A DNA stretch of 64,000 nt, from contig NZ_CP082205.1 of the NCBI RefSeq assembly GCF_019856455.1, positions 2,294,001 to 2,358,000 of the forward strand, written 5' to 3'. Made by a program: the position numbers and the translations under genes. This stretch comes from Streptococcus suis (GTDB lineage Bacteria; Bacillota; Bacilli; Lactobacillales; Streptococcaceae). This document shows positions 30,066 to 40,754 of the stretch, piece by piece; positions within the stretch are counted from its first letter, which is position 1, and every line of letters starts with the position of its first letter. The notes under the pieces are model-generated. The model had not been told where the DNA came from. It saw nothing but the letters and a program-made list of their open reading frames with translations, and ran no database searches.

Positions 30066-30935
30066 ATGAAAATTGACATTCGCATTCCCCAAGCCTTTCC
30101 CCAACTCACTGTCAAGGAAGTCTTGGAAGATTATTTTCTCATTCCTAGAAAAATCCGTCACTTCCTCCGCACCAAGAAACAGGTCCGTGTCAACGGTGAG
30201 CTGATTAATTGGCAGAGCCCGATTACCGCAGGCGACTTGTTAGAATTGACCTTTGACCAGGAAGATTATCCTGAAAAAAGCATTCCACTTGGACAAGCGG
30301 ACTTGGTGAAGGAACTCTATCAAGATGAGCATTTGATTATCGTCAACAAGCCTGAGGGTATGAAAACCCACGGCAATGAGCCGACGGAGATTGCCCTGCT
30401 CAACCATGTATCTGCCTATGTCGGCCAGACCTGCTATGTGGTCCATAGGCTGGATATGGAAACCAGCGGAGCCATTCTCTTCGCCAAAAATCCCTTTATC
30501 CTGCCCATTCTCAATCGGCTTTTGGAAGACAAGGTCATCTACCGTGACTACCTAGCCCTCTGCCAAGGCCAGCTAAAAAAGACAGACTGGACTATTACTG
30601 ATAAAATCGGACGGGACCGACACGACCGCAGAAAGCGGGTGGTCGATAACCGCAAGGGGCAGGCAGCCCTTACCCAGGTCCACCTCTTGAAGCCCCTTGG
30701 CAAAAATAGTCTAGTTTCCTGTCGTCTCCAGACAGGAAGGACCCACCAGATTCGGGTGCATTTGTCTCATCATGGTCATGCTCTAATCGGTGACCCGCTT
30801 TACAGTCGAGTCGCAGCACCTCGCCTCATGCTCCACGCCCAAAAACTCAGCCTGACCCACCCGCTGACACTCGAAGAAATCAGCGTAGAAGCACGGTCGG
30901 AGACTTTTGAGAAAGTGTTGAGAAACAGCAATTAA
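30066..30935 (+). CDS. RluA-family pseudouridine synthase
   Basis: A 289-residue RNA-modifying enzyme. An S4-like N-terminal segment (IRHFLRTKKQVRVNGELINW) precedes the catalytic domain with VVHRLDMETSGAILFAK (active-site Asp in HRLD, near residue 135) and the C-terminal LQTGRTHQIRVHLSHHGHALIGDPLY. The RNA target (23S rRNA or tRNA) cannot be told from sequence alone. It is coupled to the reductase gene and followed by a terminator. Confidence 0.9.
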   Translation: MKIDIRIPQAFPQLTVKEVLEDYFLIPRKIRHFLRTKKQVRVNGELINWQSPITAGDLLELTFDQEDYPEKSIPLGQADLVKELYQDEHLIIVNKPEGMKTHGNEPTEIALLNHVSAYVGQTCYVVHRLDMETSGAILFAKNPFILPILNRLLEDKVIYRDYLALCQGQLKKTDWTITDKIGRDRHDRRKRVVDNRKGQAALTQVHLLKPLGKNSLVSCRLQTGRTHQIRVHLSHHGHALIGDPLYSRVAAPRLMLHAQKLSLTHPLTLEEISVEARSETFEKVLRNSN

Positions 30936-30943
30936 GGAAACCC

Positions 30944-30980
30944 AAAAACCTCCAGAGTTAGACAAAACTTTTGGAGGTTT
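30944..30980 (+). terminator. Terminator after the pseudouridine synthase gene
   Basis: AAAACCTCCA and TGGAGGTTTTA pair around a 14-16-base loop, followed by T-rich sequence. Confidence 0.7.
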
Positions 30981-31033
30981 TATTGTTCCTTTTTATTGAA
31001 TGAAGCATTTTAAGCAAAACAATTATCTCGACC

Positions 31034-31942
31034 TTAAAGGATTTGACGGTTGCTTATCAATAACTTGCGTGGCCTAATCTTATCATACTCCCGATTCAAA
31101 CAGCATTCAAAATTGTAGCGTAACCAACTTGTATAACAGAAAAAATCCAATTGATTGATGACGATCAGTTGCTTTCTAATCTGTTCGCCCTTTTCTAAAC
31201 TACCTTGATGATTGCTAATAGATAGTTCATACAACAGTAGCTCTACCAATCCTGTACACAAAATAACATTCTTGGTATCTACAACTCTTTCCAGAATCGG
31301 TTCAACTAAATCATTGTCAATTAAAAAGCAGCATTGGTGAATCGCATCGTAAAGAAGAAGGCACATCAAATCAGAATAAACCAGCCCTAATTGTTCTAGT
31401 CGTTCCGTCACAGTTTGATACAAATAAGGTTCAAATGAGGTTTCTCTTTTCCACCTATACTGGTTGAATACTGGTTCTATGGCATTAAAAGTCAAATGAG
31501 TAATGTCCACTATATTCCACAAAAACAGGCTTGTAAACAATATAGATAGGACAGTCTTGTTCAAAATAAGTGTTAGGAAAATCAACAGTAAGAGAAGAAA
31601 ACTGATTTTCGATTCATATTTTAAACTAGCTGTTGACAGTGTTTTACGATGGAAGGAAAAATACGGCGAGAATCTCACGTTTATTGTTTCTCCGCTGATA
31701 ATAATAAAAGGGAAAATCGTAATAATCCGCTCTCTCTTGTACACATCTCTACATGCGAATAGCAGGTCTAGAAGGATCTTTACCAACAGCAAGACTAAAA
31801 AAGTAAGAGCCAGAACCACTATAAAATCAAAGGGTACAGCTAGACTGAATGGCAATCGATTCATCAGCAAATATAACTCCAACCACAGTCCATACATAGA
31901 AAGAAAGAGTAAACCTCTACTAATTCTAGGCGTCATATCCAT
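31034..31942 (-). CDS. Membrane protein of the bacteriocin-like island, unknown function
   Basis: About 302 residues. Hydrophobic helices fall at roughly residues 8-30, 38-65 and 105-145, followed by a soluble C-terminal half rich in Leu and Cys (CCFLID, FECCLNREYD). I see no HExxH, ABC or kinase motif and do not recognise the family. The frame is open to 32071, but MDMTPRISRGLL behind AAAGGA is the likelier start; the ATG two codons in (31936) has better spacing. It lies 41 bases behind the 85-residue membrane gene and ends the precursor A cassette. A role in immunity or maturation is inferred from position only. Confidence 0.6.
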   Translation of the reverse strand: MDMTPRISRGLLFLSMYGLWLELYLLMNRLPFSLAVPFDFIVVLALTFLVLLLVKILLDLLFACRDVYKRERIITIFPFIIISGETINVRFSPYFSFHRKTLSTASLKYESKISFLLLLLIFLTLILNKTVLSILFTSLFLWNIVDITHLTFNAIEPVFNQYRWKRETSFEPYLYQTVTERLEQLGLVYSDLMCLLLYDAIHQCCFLIDNDLVEPILERVVDTKNVILCTGLVELLLYELSISNHQGSLEKGEQIRKQLIVINQLDFFCYTSWLRYNFECCLNREYDKIRPRKLLISNRQIL

Positions 31943-31983
31943 TATCCTTTCATCACAGGTAGATCTCCATAAAATATCCGCAA

Positions 31984-32241
31984 CTACGGTTTGTTTGCAT
32001 GTTTTCTCCAAGAAGCCAATCTGGAATAGACAAAACTTCCCAAGTAGATAATCACAACAGAGCCCGTACACAAGCCTAGAATCGCATTTAAATTTTCTGC
32101 ATTAGGCAGAACCGTCACAAGTAAGCAGACCAGAAAAGCAACTGTGCTATTCAACTCTTCCTTCTTCTTGTAAAGGAGATAGAGTTGGTTCAGCACAACT
32201 ACATTTAGCGATAGGGCAACAAATATATAGAGAGTATTCAT
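31984..32241 (-). CDS. Small membrane protein, immunity candidate for precursor A
   Basis: An 85-residue protein with three predicted membrane helices (LYIFVALSLNVVVLNQLYLL; TVAFLVCLLVTVLP; AILGLCTGSVVIIYLGSFVY) separated by a short KKKEE loop, with a basic C terminus. Its ATG is one base after the precursor A stop (TAAGATG), so the two are translationally coupled. Small multi-helix proteins coupled to double-glycine precursors are typically immunity proteins; I see no specific family match. Confidence 0.65.
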   Translation of the reverse strand: MNTLYIFVALSLNVVVLNQLYLLYKKKEELNSTVAFLVCLLVTVLPNAENLNAILGLCTGSVVIIYLGSFVYSRLASWRKHANKP

Positions 32242-32242
32242 C

Positions 32243-32587
32243 TTAATAAAATACCCTATTATTACCAAGATAAGTCAATGCTGCTCCTGCACTAAATCCA
32301 GCTAAAAATCCAGTCCAAAATCCACCAATTATCCCTACAAACTTCCCAATTGCCCAGGATATCTTACCTACAATAAATGAAAAACTTCCTTTTAAGGCAG
32401 CTAAAGCACCTGCATTAACATAACCCAATGATTTTGCCATTGCATTAACAACCGAGAATACTACCGCAAATTTTTTAGCTGCTCCCCAAAGATTATTTCC
32501 TAAAACAGAAGCACTCCATCCCCCATCAAGGTACATCATTTCTTCTTCTTCAAGAACTACATAGTTATTCGGCATTACTAATTCCAT
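32243..32587 (-). CDS. Double-glycine bacteriocin-like precursor A
   Basis: A 114-residue precursor. The 23-residue leader starts MELVMPNNYV and ends EEMMYLDGG, with hydrophobic residues at the positions class II leaders use for C39 peptidase recognition. The mature part (about 91 residues) is Gly/Ala-rich and hydrophobic with GxxxG spacings (GKFVG, GFWTG) and no cysteine, so neither a lantibiotic nor a disulfide pediocin type. AAAGGAG precedes the ATG in a 5' region shared with precursors B and C. The matching peptidase-transporter lies at 36487-38706. Confidence 0.85.
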   Translation of the reverse strand: MELVMPNNYVVLEEEEMMYLDGGWSASVLGNNLWGAAKKFAVVFSVVNAMAKSLGYVNAGALAALKGSFSFIVGKISWAIGKFVGIIGGFWTGFLAGFSAGAALTYLGNNRVFY

Positions 32588-32670
32588 AAAAATTCTCCTT
32601 TAAAAATCATGGTTAGACGCAATCCTCTAACTGGATATAATCAACGTTTCTCATTCTTGCCTCGATAACA
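32588..32670 (-). repeat. 5' region copy A, shared by the three precursor genes
   Basis: About 80 bases upstream of precursor A nearly identical to the regions before precursors B and C. They include AAAGGAG, the hairpin GTTAGA..TCTAAC (32612-32631) and the conserved GAGAAACGTTGAT. Similarity fades beyond about 32670. Confidence 0.8.
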
Positions 32671-32749
32671 GAAGAGGCTCTCCTCTATGCTGTTTTGTAA
32701 TGCTAAACGTTACCATTCTAAGTGTCCATCTTCACCAAAAACTTTATTT

Positions 32750-33409
32750 TTACTCCACTAGATAGAATAAAATCATTGACAATATAGAATAAATGATGAA
32801 TTGAAAGACATGACTAAGTATTGCTTGGAGTGAGAGACATTTCACAAGTCTATTTTGCTCTATGTACTGCTTTTCTTCTAAAAAGGAGAGAGCTCCTTTA
32901 GAAGCGTATGTTTCTATAGATAGTGTGATGGGTATACAAACCAATAACATGACCGAATCAATTAGCAATAGCGACTTCAAAAAGGGAATGTATTTTTGAA
33001 ACAATAATGAATACGAAGCTAATAGCTTCAGAAATACTGAAATCAGATTAAAATAAAGAGATGTAAAGGATTGTAGCTTTAGCAATCTATTTCTGTCCTT
33101 AGAATGATAGAGTTCATGTAAAAAAGCAAAGGCATCCACCAAATAATTGCTTTCTATATTTTTTACTCCGATTGTATGAGACATTGGGCGATACCAAAAT
33201 GTCTTCGATGCAACAATTTTAGGGGTATCTACAGCTTCTATCTCACAAAACTGTAGAAAAATCGTATGTAAACCATCCCTTATTCTTAGTTCTTTACGAA
33301 TGTGTCTGTTTAAAATAATTTTATTCGTTACACTCAAAATACTTATTATAAAAAAAAGAATAAGTAGTATAACAACCATCAATATCTCTTTTTCACTATG
33401 AAGTTTCAT
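32750..33409 (-). CDS. Membrane zinc metallopeptidase, YugP-like
   Basis: A 219-residue membrane protein. One N-terminal helix (VVILLILFFIISIL) is followed by a zinc motif, FLHELYHSKD (HExxH near residue 116), two or three further helices, and the segment LSIETYASKGALSFL. This layout matches the YugP/neutral zinc metallopeptidase 2 family, where a later Glu-x-x-Ala-Ser segment supplies the third ligand. Start chosen at the ATG overlapping the precursor B stop (TGATG). Position suggests it processes, or protects against, precursor B; that is inference, as is the family call from motifs. Confidence 0.7.
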   Translation of the reverse strand: MKLHSEKEILMVVILLILFFIISILSVTNKIILNRHIRKELRIRDGLHTIFLQFCEIEAVDTPKIVASKTFWYRPMSHTIGVKNIESNYLVDAFAFLHELYHSKDRNRLLKLQSFTSLYFNLISVFLKLLASYSLLFQKYIPFLKSLLLIDSVMLLVCIPITLSIETYASKGALSFLEEKQYIEQNRLVKCLSLQAILSHVFQFIIYSILSMILFYLVE

Positions 33410-33723
33410 CACCAGAACTTGTAATGTCTCCCTGTATAATATACAGCCAAACCAACAACTGCTGCACCACCCACTACTGCAAATGCACCTCCTGGATTAA
33501 GCCACGCTGATATCACTAATGCGTTAATGGTATTAGCAACCCATCCACCAGCAATATTGATTGCTGCACCAACAAAGCTTTTTTTCACGGCATAACCAAC
33601 TATCTGGGACACCACCCCACCAACAACAGCAATTGCTGCGTCTCTAATCCAATCACCCCCGTCAAGATACATCATTTCTTCTTGTTCAAGAGCCACATAA
33701 TTATTTGGTAGTACTAATTCCAT
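33409..33723 (-). CDS. Double-glycine bacteriocin-like precursor B
   Basis: A 104-residue precursor. The leader (23 residues, MELVLPNNYV to EEMMYLDGG) differs from those of A and C at a few positions. The mature part of about 81 residues starts DWIRDAAIAVVGG, is Gly/Ala/Val-rich, and ends with an aromatic-basic tail GRHYKFW. No cysteine. It is coupled to the downstream zinc-peptidase gene by a TGATG overlap. The upstream region is the duplicated block at 33721-33910. Confidence 0.85.
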   Translation of the reverse strand: MELVLPNNYVALEQEEMMYLDGGDWIRDAAIAVVGGVVSQIVGYAVKKSFVGAAINIAGGWVANTINALVISAWLNPGGAFAVVGGAAVVGLAVYYTGRHYKFW

Positions 33724-33910
33724 AAAAATTCTCCTTTAAAAATCATGGTTAGACGCAATCCTCTAACTGGATATAATCAACGTTTCTCATTCTTTACCTA
33801 GATAGCAGAAGGACCTTTCATCTACACTGTTGGGATTTATCTACTGTAAAGATGTAAAACCATTATTGTTTAAAACTCAACAAGTCTAGAATCCAATCCA
33901 AATAGGTTTC
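33721..33910 (-). repeat. Duplicated block copy 1 (relict of accessory gene 3' end plus 5' region)
   Basis: 190 bases aligning without gaps, with only about 6 mismatches, to 34485-34674. The outer 45 bases (33866-33910) still encode ETYLDWILDLLSFKQ-stop, the C terminus of the HlyD-like protein, although no such gene is here. The similarity continues into the leader codons. Confidence 0.9.
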
Positions 33911-33998
33911 TTTAATATTTTTTATAAAGATAGTACCATTAGATTTATCTTCATAAATAAATTATTGACAAATAATGTTACAACCTTTTAATACAAAG
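33911..33998. other. AT-rich spacer
   Basis: 88 bases of AT-rich sequence between the duplicated block and the 57-residue gene; no feature seen. Confidence 0.5.
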
Positions 33999-34172
33999 CT
34001 ATTTTACTTTTATCAATAAGTAATAAGAAATTAGCATACAAATTTGTGCTAATGTAACAATAAGTGCAACCCCCGATAACTGATTAAACTCATTTTGCGA
34101 AAAATATATTGTACCGCATAACAAAAGAACAATACTGCCTTCTATGAATAAGAACAAAGGTAAATATTTCAT
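33999..34172 (-). CDS. 57-residue membrane protein, immunity candidate for precursor C
   Basis: A small gene of 57 codons and a stop, beginning MKYLPLFLFIEGS. Two membrane helices are evident (LFLFIEGSIVLLLCGTIYF and GVALIVTLAQICMLISYYLL), with a basic end (LLIKVK). It starts 6 bases after the precursor C stop. By size, topology and position it is a candidate immunity protein; no family recognised. Confidence 0.65.
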   Translation of the reverse strand: MKYLPLFLFIEGSIVLLLCGTIYFSQNEFNQLSGVALIVTLAQICMLISYYLLIKVK

Positions 34173-34178
34173 AAATGA

Positions 34179-34487
34179 TTACTTCCCAGTTACTTTTGCA
34201 TAGAAAGCGTTTTCAAATCCAGTCATAAAAATACCTCCCCAAACATTTCCAACAACTAGTGCCGCCGCCCGAACTTGCCATTTGATTTTTTGATATTGCG
34301 AATTTCTTAACCCTGCATAGTATACTCTAGTACCTGCAGCTAAGCCAGCTCCATAAGCTGCTCCACCCGCAGCTACGGCAGCTGATATTATCCCTAATAC
34401 AGTAGCTGTGGCTATTTCACCCCCATCAAGGTACATCATTTCTTCTTCTTCAAGAACTACATAGTTATTCGGCATTACTAATTCCAT
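34179..34487 (-). CDS. Double-glycine bacteriocin-like precursor C
   Basis: A 102-residue precursor. The leader is identical in sequence to that of precursor A and ends EEMMYLDGG. The mature part (about 79 residues) starts EIATATVLGIISAAVAAGG and is Ala/Gly-rich in its first half with AAYGAGLAAG, then more basic and aromatic (QYQKIKWQVR). No cysteine. It lies 139 bases behind the HlyD-like gene and is the first of the three cassettes in transcription order. Confidence 0.85.
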   Translation of the reverse strand: MELVMPNNYVVLEEEEMMYLDGGEIATATVLGIISAAVAAGGAAYGAGLAAGTRVYYAGLRNSQYQKIKWQVRAAALVVGNVWGGIFMTGFENAFYAKVTGK

Positions 34488-34674
34488 AAAAATTCTCCTT
34501 TAAAAATCATGGTTAGACGCAATCCTCTAACTGGATATAATCAACGTTTCTCATTCTTTACCTAGATAGCAGAAGGGCCTTTCATCCACACTGTTGGGAT
34601 TTATCTACTGTAAAGATGTAAAACCACTATTGTTTAAAACTCAACAATTCTAGAATCCAATCTAAATAGGTTTC
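34485..34674 (-). repeat. Duplicated block copy 2 (true accessory gene 3' end plus 5' region)
   Basis: The parental copy of the block at 33721-33910. Here the outer part is the real end of the HlyD-like gene (stop at 34627) and the inner part is the 5' region of precursor C with the GTTAGA..TCTAAC hairpin and AAAGGAG. Confidence 0.9.
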
Positions 34675-36030
34675 ATTATCATAAACGATACGAGCCTCCA
34701 CTGGCATATCTTTTTGTAAAACTACAATTTCTTCATCTTTTTTTAGAGTCAATTCTTCAAGAGCAACAACTACTTTGTAAAGACTAACATTACCATTCTG
34801 AGTTTCCTGAGTAATCGTTCCAGAGTCTATCTGAGTTACAGCACCCTTTAAGGTACCAAATTTCTGACTATTTACACCCGTGATAGCTATGTCTACCTCT
34901 GCACCGACTGTTACACGGGAAATATCTGTCGCAAGAACAAAGGCTTCTACATAGGCTTCTCTATCACTACCAGCAATTTCAGCGATAGTCTGATTTTGTT
35001 GGACAGACATCCCCTGCTTAAGCGGAGTAACATAATGTAGAGTTCCATCACTGGAGGCAGAAACAGTTAGCCCTCTATCCTGACCTATGGAAATCCCTAA
35101 ATTGGCTTCTAACTCTGTTATGCTTTTATTATTGGCTGCCCTTGCTGTCCCTAACTCACTGATTAACTGGGCATAAGTGTTGTAAGCTTGAGAAGTAGGA
35201 TCATTGTAAGAACGCTCCATCTCCCTAATACTAGACTGTAGGGACTCTATTTCCGTCCCCTTTCCCTGTATAGAAGAAGTTGTCGTTTCAATTTTTGTTT
35301 TGACTTCTGATATTTTTGTATTTAGCTGCTCCAACTGAATGCTATTAGGAGAAGAGTCAGTAGATGATGAATTGGTCTCACTATCGGAATTCGTTTCTGC
35401 TGTCTCTTGAACAGAGAGAGTTGACAATTCTGCCTCTAAATTAGCAAGTTGCGATTGGTAACTAGACAAGTCCGTTTCTAATTGACTTTTCTCCGCCACT
35501 AATTTATTCAACTTAGTGTACTCTTCCTGCAACTTAGCATATTGACTACCATCATTATAGTTTTCTGAGCTAAGTTGAGATAGATAATATTCTACCTTCC
35601 CGTAATACTCCTGCTCTTCACCTGAATTTGCCATATAATTAACTTTTTCATTCAGAGACTGTTCATACTTTTGAAAGAGACTCTCTTTAGCTTTGAGCTT
35701 GTCCAATTGTTTAGTTAAAGATTCAGTCTGAAGTCCTTCTTGTCCACTAGATAGAGAAAGAATAACCTCACCAGCTTTTACACTATCCCCTTCCTTTTTA
35801 TGAAGTGTCACAATCTTCCCATTGCTCAGAGCAGATACATACTCTGTTCCTGTTATCACGGAAGTCCCCCTAGCTTTGACTATGTAATTTTTAGGCAAAT
35901 AGGCAGATACTGCAAAAGCTATAATCAAAGTAGCTAGTGTACTAAAGATTAGGATAAACGCGTAGGCTGGAGGACGCTTATCGAAGAAGATTCTAGAATA
36001 ACGAAGTTCAGATTTGTTATATAGTTTCAT
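34627..36030 (-). CDS. HlyD-type accessory protein of peptide export
   Basis: A 467-residue adaptor linking the ABC transporter to the exterior. A short basic cytosolic N terminus, one membrane helix (AFILIFSTLATLIIAFAVSAYL, residues 24-45), a biotinyl-lipoyl-like half (GKIVTLHKKEGDSVKAGEVIL), a long coiled coil (about 100-310) with a Ser/Thr/Asn-rich insert, then the second lipoyl half (SDGTLHYVTPLKQGMSVQQNQTIAEIAG) and beta-barrel. It is of the LcnD/ComB/BlpB kind. The ATG overlaps the previous stop (ATGA), so it is coupled to the transporter operon. Confidence 0.88.
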   Translation of the reverse strand: MKLYNKSELRYSRIFFDKRPPAYAFILIFSTLATLIIAFAVSAYLPKNYIVKARGTSVITGTEYVSALSNGKIVTLHKKEGDSVKAGEVILSLSSGQEGLQTESLTKQLDKLKAKESLFQKYEQSLNEKVNYMANSGEEQEYYGKVEYYLSQLSSENYNDGSQYAKLQEEYTKLNKLVAEKSQLETDLSSYQSQLANLEAELSTLSVQETAETNSDSETNSSSTDSSPNSIQLEQLNTKISEVKTKIETTTSSIQGKGTEIESLQSSIREMERSYNDPTSQAYNTYAQLISELGTARAANNKSITELEANLGISIGQDRGLTVSASSDGTLHYVTPLKQGMSVQQNQTIAEIAGSDREAYVEAFVLATDISRVTVGAEVDIAITGVNSQKFGTLKGAVTQIDSGTITQETQNGNVSLYKVVVALEELTLKKDEEIVVLQKDMPVEARIVYDNETYLDWILELLSFKQ

Positions 36031-36494
36031 AAGCTAATAATCGGTCTAAAAATATCCACCGTCATGGTTTCATTATTTGTATTGACATAGACGGTGTAAA
36101 TAATGCCATTTGTTTCCAAATCATTTTCATAGAAATGTAAATCTAGTTTAGAATATGCATATTGCAAATACTCTGGACTATCTTCAAATCGTACATAGAC
36201 ACAATGTGGACAAACAATTTCTTCATAAACAGTATAAAACTTATCATACTGGCGAAAATCATGAGCTTGGACATACAAATCATAGTCTACAGTAATAGTC
36301 CCATCTTCATGAAGAATAGTTCCACTATTTTTTACAATCAAAGGGCCAAACATTTGCACTTTCAGTAATTGTAAGTGCTGATAAAACTTATCTATTTCTT
36401 GTTCCAAGTCTTCAAACTGAAGGCTACTTAGCTTCTTACAAATCACTTTTTTCAAAACTAATTTCTTGTTTTCTAATACTTCTAACTTACTCAT
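36027..36494 (-). CDS. GyrI-like small protein inside the export operon
   Basis: A 155-residue cytosolic protein. The first 50 residues are helical and charged (VLKKVICKKLSSLQFEDLEQEIDKF), followed by an alpha/beta region resembling GyrI/BmrR-type effector-binding domains (GPLIVKNSGTILHEDG, CPHCVYVRFEDSPEYLQYAYSKL, VDIFRPI). It overlaps the transporter gene by 8 bases and the HlyD-like gene by 4, so all three are translationally coupled. I do not know a function for it in export; sensing or chaperoning a peptide is conceivable but unproven. Confidence 0.6.
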   Translation of the reverse strand: MSKLEVLENKKLVLKKVICKKLSSLQFEDLEQEIDKFYQHLQLLKVQMFGPLIVKNSGTILHEDGTITVDYDLYVQAHDFRQYDKFYTVYEEIVCPHCVYVRFEDSPEYLQYAYSKLDLHFYENDLETNGIIYTVYVNTNNETMTVDIFRPIISL

Positions 36495-38706
36495 ATACCA
36501 CCTCTTCTGACCAGCTAGTAGCAACTGTTTTTTCTTGCTTATCTAGTTGAATGCTTTGTAAACCAACCATTGTTGCATAGCGGCCACCCAACTTCATCAA
36601 CTCATCATGCGTCCCATATTCTGCAATTTTCCCGTCTTCCAAAAAACAGATTTTATCACAACGTAGAATCGTTGATAATCTGTGGGCCACTACAACTGTC
36701 GTCTTGCCAATAATTTTTTCAAATATTAAATTTTGGATAATCTGTTCACTAAAGGAATCTAGATTGGAAGTTGCTTCATCAAAAATATAAAGATCTGCTT
36801 TACTAAGAAGAGCTCGGGCAATAGCAAGACGTTGTTTTTCTCCTCCTGAGAAATTCTGGCCACCTTCTTCAACAAAAGAACCATATCGGTTTTGTAATTT
36901 TTGAATTGTGTCATGAATCCCTACTATGCGGCATACACGTATCATATCCTCATAGCTAGCTTCTGGATTTCCTATCTTTAAATTATCAATTATAGTCCCT
37001 GAAAAGAGCTCGACTATTTGAGGGATATAAGCTATTCTTTTCCGTAATTCTCCATAATCTAGATCCCCTAAGTCATACTCACCAAACTTTATTTGACCTT
37101 CAATAGGCTGAATGAAATGAAGAAGAAGTCGTACAAGAGTACTCTTTCCTGCTCCACTTTCACCTACAAAAGCTATTTTTTCACCTTGTTTGATTATCAA
37201 ACTAAAATCTCGAATAATAGGCGGTCTAGACCCGTAAGCGAAAGAAACGTTTTTGAAGACAATATCTTCCAATAACGAAAAATTATGGATACTATTCCCT
37301 ACTTGACTATCTTCACGCTCAACATCCATCAATTCTTGAAGTCGGCTAACAGCAACCTGAACTTCCTGGAAAGTAAGTTGGAGACCAACCAAATTCTGAA
37401 CAGGCTCAGTAAAATACTGACTCAAGGTCTGAAAAACAAGAAGATCACCAATTGTCATCTTGTTATCAATAATAAATAAGGCTCCCACTCCCATAAAAAT
37501 CAAATTCCCTAGAGTTCCGGCTATAGAAGAAATTGTAGATTGAATATTTTGTAAAAAACCTTCTTTATAGCCAATTTCTAAGGTGTGAACAAAATTCTCT
37601 TCTAGTTTATCCAAACGTTGTCGTTCATCATGCTGTGATTTTATGGTATCTATGTTACGAATAGATTCTATCAATTGCGAATTAAGCATAGAGTTTGCTT
37701 CCATCTGCTCATTATTAATCTTCTTATAAGGTTTCTTGAAGCAATAAATTAACACGATATTCACAATCACTATCATAACCAATATTAGAAATAAAGTGGG
37801 GTTGAGATGCCATAAAACAAAGGCACTTATCAGTGATAGGCTAATATCCATAACTAACGAAATAGAAACCGAGGTAAAAACATTCTTTATCGTCATGGCA
37901 TCTTGAAACCGTGTCAAGACATCACCCACCCTTCTGCTACCGAAAAAACTATAAGGTAGGTGAATAATATGGTCATAATAGCCCAGGAGCACAGGAATAT
38001 CAATTTTTCTTGATAGAAATAGCAAAATATGTTGCCTAAAAGCAGATAAGAGACTCTGCACTAAAGAAACGATGCCAAAAACAATCAAGAATAAGTATAA
38101 GCTGTTCTTTAATCCAAAGGGAATAATCTCATCCATAATAACTTTGGAAAAAAGACTAGACAAAATACCAACGATACTTAGCAAGAATGATGCTAAGATG
38201 ATTGTCCCCACAAGTCCTTTCTGTGTTAATATCAGAGCTGAAAATAAGTCAAATAGTCCTTTGCCTTTCATGTTTCCTTTTTCAAACTCGCTATTTGGAA
38301 CCATGAAAATGGCTATTCCTTGATAAACTTCCTCAAGTTCTGTAATTGAAAGCATATCCAGTCCTTTTGCTGGATCAGCTACCAAATAATTACCATCTTT
38401 CTTTATCTTATGAATCACTATAAAATGATTCTGCCCCAGACTATTCCGTATTTGTAGTATAGCTGGAAAGCTAATATCTCCAGTTAAGTCATCCAAGGAT
38501 ACTCGAACTGCCTTTACGGTAAAATTTAACTTTTCAAGACCAGAAACAATTCCGTGAACGGTCGTTCCATACATATCTGTTCCAATAATTTCCCGAATTT
38601 TCATTATTGAAAGTTCTTTTTTATAGGTCAATAATACAGTGGAGACAACAGCTGCTGCACAATCTGACTGGTCATGTTGCAAAGTGCAAGCATATTTTTT
38701 AAACAT
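36487..38706 (-). CDS. Peptidase-containing (C39) ABC transporter
   Basis: A 739-residue bacteriocin-type exporter that cuts double-glycine leaders and exports the product. The C39 peptidase domain (1-150) has Cys in QHDQSDCAAAVV, His in QNHFIVIHKIKK and Asp in VADPAKG. Six membrane helices follow (about 160-440), then the ATPase with Walker A GESGAGKST (near 513), signature FSGGEKQRL and Walker B LYIFDEAT. All catalytic residues are present. It is preceded by GGCGGAG and lies 16 bases behind the 40-residue peptide gene. Partner substrates are the three precursors downstream. Confidence 0.95.
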   Translation of the reverse strand: MFKKYACTLQHDQSDCAAAVVSTVLLTYKKELSIMKIREIIGTDMYGTTVHGIVSGLEKLNFTVKAVRVSLDDLTGDISFPAILQIRNSLGQNHFIVIHKIKKDGNYLVADPAKGLDMLSITELEEVYQGIAIFMVPNSEFEKGNMKGKGLFDLFSALILTQKGLVGTIILASFLLSIVGILSSLFSKVIMDEIIPFGLKNSLYLFLIVFGIVSLVQSLLSAFRQHILLFLSRKIDIPVLLGYYDHIIHLPYSFFGSRRVGDVLTRFQDAMTIKNVFTSVSISLVMDISLSLISAFVLWHLNPTLFLILVMIVIVNIVLIYCFKKPYKKINNEQMEANSMLNSQLIESIRNIDTIKSQHDERQRLDKLEENFVHTLEIGYKEGFLQNIQSTISSIAGTLGNLIFMGVGALFIIDNKMTIGDLLVFQTLSQYFTEPVQNLVGLQLTFQEVQVAVSRLQELMDVEREDSQVGNSIHNFSLLEDIVFKNVSFAYGSRPPIIRDFSLIIKQGEKIAFVGESGAGKSTLVRLLLHFIQPIEGQIKFGEYDLGDLDYGELRKRIAYIPQIVELFSGTIIDNLKIGNPEASYEDMIRVCRIVGIHDTIQKLQNRYGSFVEEGGQNFSGGEKQRLAIARALLSKADLYIFDEATSNLDSFSEQIIQNLIFEKIIGKTTVVVAHRLSTILRCDKICFLEDGKIAEYGTHDELMKLGGRYATMVGLQSIQLDKQEKTVATSWSEEVVYE

Positions 38707-38722
38707 ATATACTCCGCCCTAA

Positions 38723-38845
38723 CTATTTTGCATAGATAAATATTTCTTCTCTATCTACACCAAAAACTCTCGGCAATTGTGGAACTCTAATTAAAATAAC
38801 CGCTAGTAATCCCACCACCAAAACACTCTTAACTATTCTTTTCAT
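38723..38845 (-). CDS. 40-residue hydrophobic peptide, candidate signalling peptide
   Basis: A short gene with its own consensus promoter and AAAGGGG ribosome site. The peptide has a basic start (MKRIVKS), a hydrophobic stretch (VLVVGLLAVILI) and a C-terminal tail ending GVDREEIFIYAK. It lies between the HTH/TPR regulator and the C39 transporter, the position of Phr/SHP/RtgS-type pheromone precursors. The acidic-then-hydrophobic tail (EEIFIYAK) recalls Rgg-associated short hydrophobic peptides. Its coding status rests on promoter, ribosome site and context; the pheromone role is inference. Confidence 0.65.
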   Translation of the reverse strand: MKRIVKSVLVVGLLAVILIRVPQLPRVFGVDREEIFIYAK

Positions 38846-38868
38846 TTTGTAACCCCTTTCTTTCCTAT

Positions 38869-38897
38869 AGTATAACCGTTTCGTTACCTATTGTCAA
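38869..38897 (-). promoter_or_regulatory. Promoter of the peptide-transporter operon
   Basis: A perfect -35 TTGACA (38892-38897) and a -10 TATACT (38869-38874) with a 17-base spacer on the minus strand. The spacer contains TAACGAAACGGTTA, an imperfect inverted repeat placed where the adjacent regulator could bind. GAAACG recurs in the 5' regions of all three precursor genes. Confidence 0.85.
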
Positions 38898-38949
38898 TGT
38901 TTTTTGATATTTTTCTAACAAAATTTATTATTGTTATATTTTTGATATA

Positions 38950-38983
38950 AAAAGAAGCCTGCCCCTCTGGAGCAAGCTCAATC
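38950..38983 (-). terminator. Terminator of the HTH/TPR regulator gene
   Basis: On the minus strand GAGCTTGCTCC and GGGGCAGGCTTC pair (with G-U) around AGA, followed by TTTTT. It overlaps the stop codon region. Confidence 0.65.
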
Positions 38984-39847
38984 TGTATAGGTTTCTTTGA
39001 GGTATTTTTCTATTTTCAAAGCAATAGCATCAATGCCTGCTAACTCGTAAAGAAGTCGTGATAGTTCATAGCGTTTTTTGACCAGTTGCTTATCCGCAAA
39101 GTCTTCTGTCACATTTCCTAAGTCACAATAAAAATCTGCCAAGAAATGGATAGGATAGATTGACTTGAATTCCTCAATGCAGGCTGTAACCAGCTCAATT
39201 CCCTTTTCCAACTGATTTGTCAACCATAGGTAGCGGATGTAGTTGGACTGAATACTGAAGTAAGCATCTATATCCACCAATAAATCCAACTTATTTTTAT
39301 CAATCTTTTCGATTACCTCACTATAGAATTGCTCTGCCTCAGCATTCTTCTCATCTCGAATCAATAGAATCAATAAACTATTGTACAGATAGAGGTAGCC
39401 TCTCCTATTCTCCCCAACTCGTTCCAGCAACTCCCTCAATTTCTGAATAGCATCTTCTCGCCTTGCTTCCAAATTCTCTGCTAAAACAGCCTCCACCCAT
39501 TCCAAATAAACTTGGTCTGGAAAGTTCAGATGAGATAGGGTGCCCTTTTCCCTTTCATATAGAAAGCCCAAAGCCTCATAATCTCTTTGCATAAGACAGT
39601 TTTTGGCAAGTTTTCTAAACTGTTTCAAGTCAGAGACAATTTCGCTTTCCTCTTCATCAAAAAAATAGTCCATTCTGACTTGGAGTTTTTTAGCAAGGGC
39701 ATGAAGCAAGTCTGCACCAGGCATGTAGGTTCCCTTCTCAATGCGGCTAATCTGCCCTTGATCACAGACCCCTTCTGCCAACTCCTTCTGCGACCAGCCC
39801 AATTCTTTTCTTCTATTTTTTAACCTTGTTGCTAGTAAAACTTTCAT
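38978..39847 (-). CDS. HTH/TPR peptide-responsive regulator (PlcR/Rgg-like)
   Basis: A 289-residue cytosolic regulator. Residues 1-65 are a helix-turn-helix domain (LKNRRKELGWSQKELAEGVCDQGQISRIEKG). The rest is helical repeats of the TPR type that in this superfamily (PlcR, TprA, Rgg, ComR) bind an imported short peptide. Directly downstream lie a strong promoter and a 40-residue peptide gene, then the C39 export operon, so it very likely controls that operon. Whether it activates or represses cannot be read from sequence. Confidence 0.85.
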   Translation of the reverse strand: MKVLLATRLKNRRKELGWSQKELAEGVCDQGQISRIEKGTYMPGADLLHALAKKLQVRMDYFFDEEESEIVSDLKQFRKLAKNCLMQRDYEALGFLYEREKGTLSHLNFPDQVYLEWVEAVLAENLEARREDAIQKLRELLERVGENRRGYLYLYNSLLILLIRDEKNAEAEQFYSEVIEKIDKNKLDLLVDIDAYFSIQSNYIRYLWLTNQLEKGIELVTACIEEFKSIYPIHFLADFYCDLGNVTEDFADKQLVKKRYELSRLLYELAGIDAIALKIEKYLKETYTD

Positions 39848-39910
39848 ATCAACCTCTCAGAATCCAATCTATATTTATTATAACAGGTTAAGCCCTAGCA
39901 GACAAACAAC

Positions 39911-39934
39911 AAAAAACCTCTCATCAAGAGAGGC
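39911..39934 (-). terminator. purR terminator
   Basis: Minus-strand CCTCTC and GAGAGG around TTGAT, followed by TTTTTTG, just after the purR stop. Confidence 0.85.
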
Positions 39935-39941
39935 TTAACGA

Positions 39942-40754
39942 TTAATCAAAAATATTTCCCAACTCAACATCCACGCGATTTTCTTTGACATTGATGTCGG
40001 TCACAGCGAGCAAAGACTTGTAGTTAGCTACGCTACGGTCCCCTTTTTGGTTTTCTGCAAAGACAGCTACGCCTACCAAGGTTGAGTCAAACTCAGACAA
40101 GAGGCTAATCATACCATTGATGGTACCACCATTTTTCAAGAAGTCATCGACGATTAAGACACGGCTTCCTGCCTTCAAACTACGCTTAGACAGGAACATC
40201 TTTTCGATACGGTCGCTAGAGCCTGACACATAGTTGACAGAAACGGTTGAACCTTCTGTGATTTTCAAATCACGACGCACAATAACAAACGGTACATTAA
40301 GGACATTGGCAACAGCATTGGCCAAGGGCACACCTTTGGTTGCAACCGTCATCACTGCATCAATTTTTTCATCTTTAAAAGCGTCAGCTATGATACGACC
40401 GACATTTTTCAAAATATGTGGTGTAGACAGCAAGTCAGATGAATAGATATAACCGCCTGGCAAGATACGATTACTTTCGGCCATCTGATCACGAAGGGCC
40501 TGTGCAATTTCGACAGACTCTGCCTTAGAGATTGATGGAGTAAAAACAACTCCTCCACTGGCACCTGTAATGGTTTCAATATGCCCGATAGAGCTTTCCT
40601 CAAAAGCCTTTTTAATGATGGCAATATCCTCTGAGATAGATGACTTGGCAGATTCATACTTTTCCGCAAAGGTATTCAAACTAGTTAATTCATAAGGGTG
40701 GTTGATGAGGTAATTGGAAATGACAACCATACGCTCACTTCTTCTTAATTTCAT
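39942..40754 (-). CDS. purR: Purine operon repressor PurR
   Basis: A 270-residue regulator of purine genes. The N-terminal winged helix (LRRSERMVVISNYLINHPYELT) is followed by a phosphoribosyltransferase-fold domain with the PRPP loop RVLIVDDFLKNGGTI near residue 200. PRPP binding relieves DNA binding. Two inverted CGAAC boxes 16 bases apart lie just upstream over its promoter, indicating autoregulation, and purA in this window has a matching site. Confidence 0.95.
   Translation of the reverse strand: MKLRRSERMVVISNYLINHPYELTSLNTFAEKYESAKSSISEDIAIIKKAFEESSIGHIETITGASGGVVFTPSISKAESVEIAQALRDQMAESNRILPGGYIYSSDLLSTPHILKNVGRIIADAFKDEKIDAVMTVATKGVPLANAVANVLNVPFVIVRRDLKITEGSTVSVNYVSGSSDRIEKMFLSKRSLKAGSRVLIVDDFLKNGGTINGMISLLSEFDSTLVGVAVFAENQKGDRSVANYKSLLAVTDINVKENRVDVELGNIFD

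Follow-up and report, generated by a model that had tools for sequence, protein, structure and literature searches.

Here we report that a Streptococcus suis-like strain carries an intact rtg-type export island with a swapped quorum switch and a modular payload. The island lies on a 64,000-nucleotide (nt) stretch of DNA, here called the window (NCBI RefSeq assembly GCF_019856455.1, contig NZ_CP082205.1, positions 2,294,001 to 2,358,000), in a genome of 2,561,054 bases in one contig (G000); the host is S. suis or a very close relative of it. From its sequence, the gene set probably makes and exports three bacteriocin-like peptides, and our reading, to which we assign a probability of roughly 0.7, is that these are secreted as independent products under a PlcR/TprA-type regulator that replaces RtgR. 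An earlier note made from the sequence alone had described a regulator-peptide-C39 transporter layout. All of the genes it claimed are present as intact open frames on the minus strand and the layout is confirmed, with HTH_3 in the regulator, HlyD_3 in the adaptor and a complete C39 exporter (Table 1). Two of its membrane-protein calls needed adjusting: the presumed partner of the third precursor is better read from the ATG at 32241 (85 amino acids, aa), and the last membrane protein is better read as 300 aa from 31936, as in locus L065, than as 345 aa from a GTG. In the literature searched, rtg is described for the pneumococcus, and no account of an rtg-type island in S. suis was found.

The exporter scores 552.7 bits against TIGR01193, above the cut-off of 523.85, and contains Peptidase_C39 (PF03412), ABC_membrane (PF00664) and ABC_tran (PF00005) domains; Cys16, His94 and Asp111, which we take to be the C39 catalytic triad, are invariant in an alignment with the L013 relative. 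It is paired with an HlyD-type adaptor, as expected of an rtg-type island, and the order exporter-RtgX-adaptor is conserved in streptococci and one clostridium, with exporter identity reaching 97-99% in two further S. suis-like genomes (L065, from genome G132, and L018, S. suis YS56). The genes are tightly packed: that for RtgX shares 8 nt with the exporter gene and 4 nt with the adaptor gene, and the stop codon of the upstream peptide gene falls 16 nt ahead of the exporter start. The only Rfam match in the scan, a sub-threshold CRISPR-repeat inside the exporter gene, was taken as chance.

The 155-aa protein between exporter and adaptor matches nothing in Pfam or NCBIfam, yet its earlier description as GyrI-like is borne out by a structure model (predicted local distance difference test, pLDDT, 93.8) that matches SAV2435, CTR107, CtaZ, the albicidin-resistance protein STM3175 and SbmC/GyrI. 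These fold matches, together with the homologous S. pneumoniae protein P0148 (59%), identify it as RtgX-like; a GyrI-like rtgX is listed in pneumococcal rtg by Wang et al. 2020 (PMC7018657). Since rtgX is present in 21.1% of 318 pneumococcal loci (PMC7018657), we regard it as typical of an rtg-type island and not as required. It was found in 10 of 284 Streptococcus genomes, among them G017 with degraded pieces only and G278 (L017) with an internal stop. Exclusivity of RtgX to rtg islands was considered and rejected, a 40% homologue occurring in L096 with no C39 exporter within the 19 kb fetched. Because several of its fold relatives bind antibiotics, RtgX may, by analogy, shield the producer cytoplasm or carry precursors.

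Three double-glycine (GG) precursors, GG1 to GG3, make up the payload, and they are as the earlier note described them: nearly identical leaders (consensus MELV[ML]PNNYV[VA]LE[EQ]EEMMYLDGG) ahead of cysteine-free mature parts of 79, 81 and 91 aa. All three leaders carry Y-15, L-12, M-7, L-4 and P-18, the residues published for RtgG (PMC7018657), and leaders closely related to theirs occur with the named S. pneumoniae proteins P0012, P0102, P0110 and P0111, two of which bear the source name SPH_0218 / SPH_0224 family bacteriocin-like peptide. With leader and RtgX both common to named pneumococcal proteins, the proposed kinship to pneumococcal rtg is upheld. A search with the precursor alignment found exactly three such genes in the 2.56-Mb window genome, and matches at E<=1e-6 in 24 of the 284 genus genomes, several of them weak or fragmentary.

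The switch is where the window departs from rtg. Its regulator matches HTH_3 (5e-14) and, across residues 5-249, PlcR in the PDB (9e-11), with TPR models matching below cut-off only; it is 94% identical to its counterpart in S. suis YS56, 62% to the L064 relative and 34% to TprA of L090. It is thus a PlcR-type HTH-TPR regulator of the kind found in TprA/PhrA-type switches. The Rgg-family RtgR with a WxW pheromone, RtgS, is absent from the window and present in L014 (Streptococcus sp. LQJ-218), where the Rgg gene is divergent and a 28-aa peptide ends in AIIFPWGWPI, identical to the sequence tabulated as RtgS type A (PMC13361665). The regulator at the corresponding place in L013/L014 matches ComR among others, with Rgg_C below cut-off, and aligns with that of the window mainly over 53 HTH residues. 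Because a PlcR-type regulator replaces RtgR/RtgS, we use the term rtg-type export island and not, strictly, rtg locus; the earlier likeness to rtg holds for kinship and fails for the regulator.

As in pneumococcal rtg (PMC7018657), the window combines a C39 exporter, an HlyD-type adaptor, a GyrI-like RtgX, several GG peptides with a conserved leader, immunity-like partners and a small pheromone gene ahead of the exporter. Unlike that locus, it has a co-oriented PlcR/TprA-type regulator in place of a divergent Rgg, a pheromone without the Trp-Gly-Trp motif, an S. suis-like host and an intact gene set. With TprA/PhrA and TprA2/PhrA2 of S. pneumoniae (PMC5436883) it shares a PlcR-type regulator, a small hydrophobic peptide and a bacteriocin-type locus, but its peptide gene is co-oriented and directly ahead of an rtg-type exporter, the peptide C-terminus differs and the cargo is not a lanthipeptide. 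The PapR/TprA-like pairs of the salivarius group (PMC12445099) likewise consist of such a regulator and a small peptide with an I/V-D core; the text available from that source says nothing of their controlling an rtg-type export core.

Comparison across loci indicates that the switch is exchangeable. Among nine streptococcal species loci with the exporter, eight have a PlcR-type regulator and one (L014) has Rgg/RtgR; the PlcR-type gene is co-oriented in seven (the window, L065, L018, L064, L015, L016/L062 from S. mitis SK608, and L063) and divergent in L017, where the regulator is 56% identical to TprA. The L014 and L016 exporters are 98.7% identical under unrelated regulators. The L016/L062 regulator is itself 98.3% identical to a second L014 regulator, located ahead of a Lactococcin_972 gene (Pfam 2e-21), and the peptides of these two loci are nearly the same, so the switch appears to pass as a module from one bacteriocin locus to another. 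In L014 this module, a PlcR-type regulator and a 53-aa peptide gene preceding the Lactococcin_972 gene, occupies L014:2887-4515. The window genome holds two further PlcR-type regulators (C1:686850-687704 and 693960-694799; 37% and 30%), some 6 kb apart.

The pheromone candidate is an adjacent small precursor with an N-terminal hydrophobic stretch. Its promoter, TTGACA-17-TATACT, scores 11/12, the best of 41 promoter-like sites in 30900-40000 (the count itself is unremarkable, the shuffled mean being 31.8), and lies behind a terminator-like stem that closes the regulator gene, one of 8 such sites found against 5.3 expected. A promoter of the same class stands 3' of related regulators in 18 of 24 rows, a count made with a loose pattern and no shuffle control and in which some loci figure twice. 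Position and promoter class both match those of Phr/PapR-like peptides of related regulators. Several such regulators are followed by small peptides with a G/E-I/V-D core: IDPGPAN in L042, L044, L048 and L049, and GIDTG in L015, L014, L062 and L063, the equivalent stretch of the window peptide being GVDREE. PhrA ends in LDVGKAD, its gene divergent from that of TprA in L090; the filter for small peptides showed none of the I/V-D kind in the other regulator rows. Relative to the window, the YS56 peptide gene has one silent change and three replacements, the replacements all falling in the last seven residues, and the YS56 regulator has 18 differences, of which 2 lie within residues 1-70. On this one comparison the differences look like early pherotype divergence.

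The direction of control has to be weighed, because TprA is a repressor relieved by its Phr peptide, and TprA2 is also a repressor (PMC5436883, PMC12445099, PMC7595303, PMC9067509, PMC9782415), whereas RtgR is needed for activation in the pneumococcus (PMC7018657); the control logic of the window thus likely differs from that of rtg. An activator requiring its peptide, as PlcR does with PapR, is possible but somewhat unlikely. The full-length solved relative of the regulator is PlcR, termed a transcriptional activator, and RtgR, required for activation in the pneumococcus, stands at the corresponding place in L014. A near-consensus promoter (11/12), however, should work unaided, the dyad lies within the -35/-10 spacer, and the streptococcal TprA and TprA2 are described as repressors.

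We therefore prefer relief of repression, and would picture the system as follows. The 40-aa precursor, made from its own strong promoter, would leave the cell and be cut down to a C-terminal peptide near GVDREEIFIYAK. At high density this peptide would be re-imported and, as for TprA/PlcR, bind the TPR domain of the regulator, lifting repression at an operator inside the -35/-10 spacer, where the dyad is found. The peptide, exporter, RtgX, adaptor and precursor genes, which form one run, would then switch on with positive feedback. By the precedent of RtgAB, through which secretion of pneumococcal RtgC and RtgG is published (PMC7018657), the exporter would recognise the rtg-type leader including its Pro-18 region, and its C39 domain would cut after GG. 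The released cationic, hydrophobic peptides of 79-91 aa would probably permeabilise competitors, with the membrane protein of each cassette protecting the producer. Cassettes would be exchanged through recombination in the repeated leader, 5' untranslated region (UTR) and hlyD-tail sequence.

That the three products may act together, as the earlier note supposed, is unsupported, because precursor cores mostly travel with their own partner proteins. Eleven of the 15 same-core pairs share a partner family, compared with a mean of 1.3 and a maximum of 7 in 10,000 shuffles. Two of the four failures stem from a loose core cluster around L064_7145 and two from an IS200-type transposase that stands 3' of the L017 precursor; behind it comes a 317-aa gene that resembles the L018 partner (26% identity, E 5e-25). 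The pairing script took the large membrane protein as the GG3 partner in place of the 85-aa one, and L064_966 was dropped since no partner lies within the stretch fetched. The GG1 core occurs together with a 57-68 aa membrane partner in four loci (the window, L065, L014 and L017), and in two streptococci an HExxH protein of 218-220 aa is the partner of GG2. In two-peptide bacteriocins a single immunity protein serves both peptides. A multi-component bacteriocin requiring all three peptides would fit co-located, presumably co-expressed precursors with near-identical leaders, but we consider it highly improbable: a search of the L018 genome matched its one precursor and no other, L015 shows one before its contig ends ~600 nt further on, and the combination of cores varies from locus to locus, whereas a core that recurs mostly has the same partner.

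The GG2 partner deserves separate mention. Its HExxH motif is kept in all three aligned relatives, and it scores 15.6 bits against the cut-off of 27 for a curated peptidase family. A distant relative (20% identity) 3' of the precursor in the clostridial locus L080 matches Peptidase_M48 at 1.8e-17. A metallopeptidase serving as immunity or processing factor would be unusual.

Payload change has left traces at the sequence level. The 262-nt direct repeat places a second copy of the final 52 nt of hlyD ahead of GG2 and is, as read from its sequence, the scar of a cassette duplication; hlyD tails near precursors also occur in L017, L064 and L087, and payloads have probably changed through recombination at the leader, the UTR and the hlyD tail. 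Partner-like genes persist without their own precursor in L018 and L065; relatives of the 85-aa membrane protein (71-77%) occur in both loci, from which GG3 is absent. The 300-aa membrane protein has relatives of 92% in L065 and 51-53% in L083, L085 and L086. Such orphan partners would also fit a relic, weakly expressed or silent and kept for its immunity genes only, as would the disruption of rtgA in 59.1% of 318 pneumococcal loci (PMC7018657), the degraded state of L068 and L083, and the interrupted RtgX and adaptor frames of L017. This is very unlikely for the window, where all island genes are open; in L065 and L018, too, the regulator, peptide, exporter, RtgX and adaptor are open, with the exporter 97-99% identical.

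Several observations weigh against our reading of the island as a pheromone-controlled bacteriocin system. The rtg authors could not determine the function of their peptides (PMC7018657). GG1 reaches 15.0 bits against TIGR03949, below the 21.5 cut-off that would place it in class IIb, GG2 and GG3 have no TIGR03949 match, and bacteriocin models miss GG2 altogether. A Foldseek search with the GG1 model (pLDDT 72.9, predicted template modelling score 0.64, 16 sequences) returned nothing at E<=0.001 in the PDB or viral models, which leaves the fold uninformative on mode of action. Six different-core pairs also share a partner family (L063_5423 with GG1 partners, L080 with GG2 partners). On the side of the switch, the peptide is unmatched in Pfam and NCBIfam, its gene is co-oriented with that of the regulator where the pneumococcal one is divergent, and the L064 peptide lacks the G-I/V-D core. 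The spacer core GTAACGAAAC-GTTA recurs in L018 and L065, other relatives having different promoter spacers; occurring only in near-identical S. suis-like loci, the spacer dyad lends the operator candidate little weight.

In keeping with the first of these points, the exported peptides could be signals, adhesion or biofilm factors and their partners receptors or processing enzymes. No activity is reported for the peptides in the available text of the rtg paper (PMC7018657), pneumococcal double-glycine peptides include biofilm and adherence factors, and one partner has a metallopeptidase motif. We consider this unlikely, since the mature cores are cationic and hydrophobic, many different cores occur with recurring partners, and the GG1 homologues P0038 and P0054 are labelled in their source as class IIb bacteriocin, lactobin A/cerein 7B. 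With that family GG1 shares a double-glycine leader and a weak TIGR03949 match, and P0054 just reaches the cut-off; the differences are that GG1 falls below the cut-off and that recurring cores mostly have their own partner. For GG3 and most partners tested Pfam and NCBIfam gave no family (GG3 had one sub-threshold Pfam match). The precursors do not turn out to be housekeeping membrane proteins, which would have told against the earlier note: short peptides of secreted type with the GG1 core occur in other phyla.

Relatives beyond S. suis place the leader in a wider setting. L083, probably a pneumococcal rtg locus, has three precursor genes, one with DGEA instead of GG; two of its precursors are 96% and 99% identical to named S. 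pneumoniae proteins, and two fragments beside them match the Rgg of L014 at 90% and 95% identity; no rtgA-like frame was found within the 19.5 kb fetched. Loss of a glycine of the pair in L063:5121-5423, L064:4805-5086, L083:4584-4970 and P0109 (DGEG, NGEG, DGEA and DEGD) is odd, as the change recurs across species at the expected cleavage site. Clostridial L080 combines an exporter (63%), RtgX (56%), an adaptor (39%) and an rtg-type precursor. In L080:1765-4537 and L019:3742-9658 clostridial exporters, that of L019 with a broken frame, lie beside two serine recombinases, which suggests from gene context that they belong to a mobile element.

Homologues of GG1 number at least 191 at E<=0.01 (the best 8000 candidates scored), including sequences from Microbacterium, Frigoribacterium and Labedella. 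We examined 76 among 120 matches listed, leaving out P0006 and P0083-P0125, mostly leader matches. A recognised GG leader is present in 49 of the 76, with Pro-18, Leu/Met/Ile-21 and Tyr/Phe-15 in 49/49 and Glu-8 in 47/49 of these leaders, which are related by descent; positions -17, -16, -14 and -11 vary widely. The leader rule required acidic residues and an aromatic residue at about -23 to -14, so that Tyr/Phe-15 is partly built in, whereas it made no demand for Pro; P0056, one of those excluded, combines Pro-18 with Ser-15. Longer, Sec-like N-termini, called by eye and a crude rule and not by a signal-peptide predictor, were seen in 16/76 (including Frigoribacterium P0070), and 11/76 were unclassified. 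A scan of viral_contigs for GG1 kin confirmed 0 of 68 stretches, and tblastn of an actinobacterial homologue against plasmids gave no match. The RtgAB motif was placed at -22 to -18 and called exclusive to rtg peptides (PMC7018657); at the sequence level Pro-18 is not exclusive to them.

Taken jointly, these comparisons lead us to a tentative proposal, a little short of even odds, that the rtg core is a chassis with plug-in switch and payload and that the Pro-18 leader is an old cross-phylum address tag. For the chassis, near-identical exporters would run under either of two unrelated receptor/pheromone classes, RtgR/WGW or PlcR/Phr-like, and a single pheromone may trigger two unrelated bacteriocin systems, because lactococcin-972-like loci have the PlcR-type module too. 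For the leader, GG1 cargo would also be moved behind Sec-like signals in actinobacteria, and the HExxH membrane protease may be the GG2 immunity protein.

A further shared element, GTTAG-loop-CTAAC, precedes 26 of the 30 precursor genes by 37-47 nt, counted from the start codon, in 16 of the 17 loci scanned (L088_8966 is a truncated second view of L064_966; the L080 precursor was not matched by the start pattern and its upstream region lacks GTTAG..CTAAC). Searched with gaps of 5-12, the window has three sites, each with a gap of 10 and each ahead of a precursor; 0.40 were expected and 1 of 100 shuffles reached three. One pair covaries (GC in 8 and AU in 7 of 15 distinct rows), with shuffles often or always equalling the real rows on two of five measures. 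Four streptococcal 5' regions folded no more stably than shuffles (z -0.06 to -0.70), and the clostridial one, of different sequence, folded better (z -2.29). An operator for the regulator was rejected, because the dyad is the same regardless of regulator class, in L014 (Rgg), PlcR-type loci and pneumococcal L083; a role in RNA or recombination remains as a candidate.

These comparisons make an orphan pneumococcal locus, whose peptides had no settled function, part of a family of which S. suis-like strains carry intact members, and name a new candidate pheromone-receptor pair. They indicate that bacteriocin loci can exchange quorum switches, and suggest Pro-18 as a sequence rule for assigning orphan double-glycine peptides to RtgAB-like exporters.

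Table 1. Positions in the window of the rtg-type island and its features.
Feature	Position	Strand	Remark
Island, whole	31034..39847	-	Regulator, peptide, C39 exporter, 155-aa protein, adaptor, 3 cassettes, 300-aa protein
PlcR/TprA-type regulator	38978..39847	-	289 aa; HTH and TPR-type C-terminus
Terminator-like stem 3' of regulator	38955..38979	-	11 pairs and T tract
Promoter TTGACA-17-TATACT	38869..38897	-	TAAC-N6-GTTA dyad in spacer, operator candidate
Pheromone-precursor candidate	38723..38845	-	40 aa; C-terminus FGVDREEIFIYAK
RtgA-like peptidase-containing ABC transporter	36487..38706	-	739 aa
RtgX-like GyrI-fold protein	36027..36494	-	155 aa
RtgB-like HlyD-type adaptor	34627..36030	-	467 aa; HlyD_3 5e-16
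5'-UTR dyad GTTAG..CTAAC upstream of GG1	34512..34531	-	
Precursor GG1	34179..34487	-	102 aa; 23-aa leader, 79-aa core
Membrane protein, GG1 partner	33999..34172	-	57 aa; likely immunity
5'-UTR dyad upstream of GG2	33748..33767	-	
Precursor GG2	33409..33723	-	104 aa; 81-aa core; relative in S. ruminantium (P0090)
Membrane protein, GG2 partner	32750..33412	-	220 aa; HELYH motif
5'-UTR dyad upstream of GG3	32612..32631	-	
Precursor GG3	32243..32587	-	114 aa; 91-aa core
Membrane protein, presumed GG3 partner	31984..32241	-	85 aa
Membrane protein, accessory	31034..31936	-	300 aa; gene common to other rtg-type loci
Direct repeat, 262 nt	33653..33914 vs 34417-34678		94% identical; strand not assigned

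On one side of the island is a plus-strand gene of pseudouridine-synthase type (30066-30935) and on the other a minus-strand gene of purR type (39942-40754), both named by eye, and three flanking genes are 96-97% identical to their counterparts in S. suis YS56.

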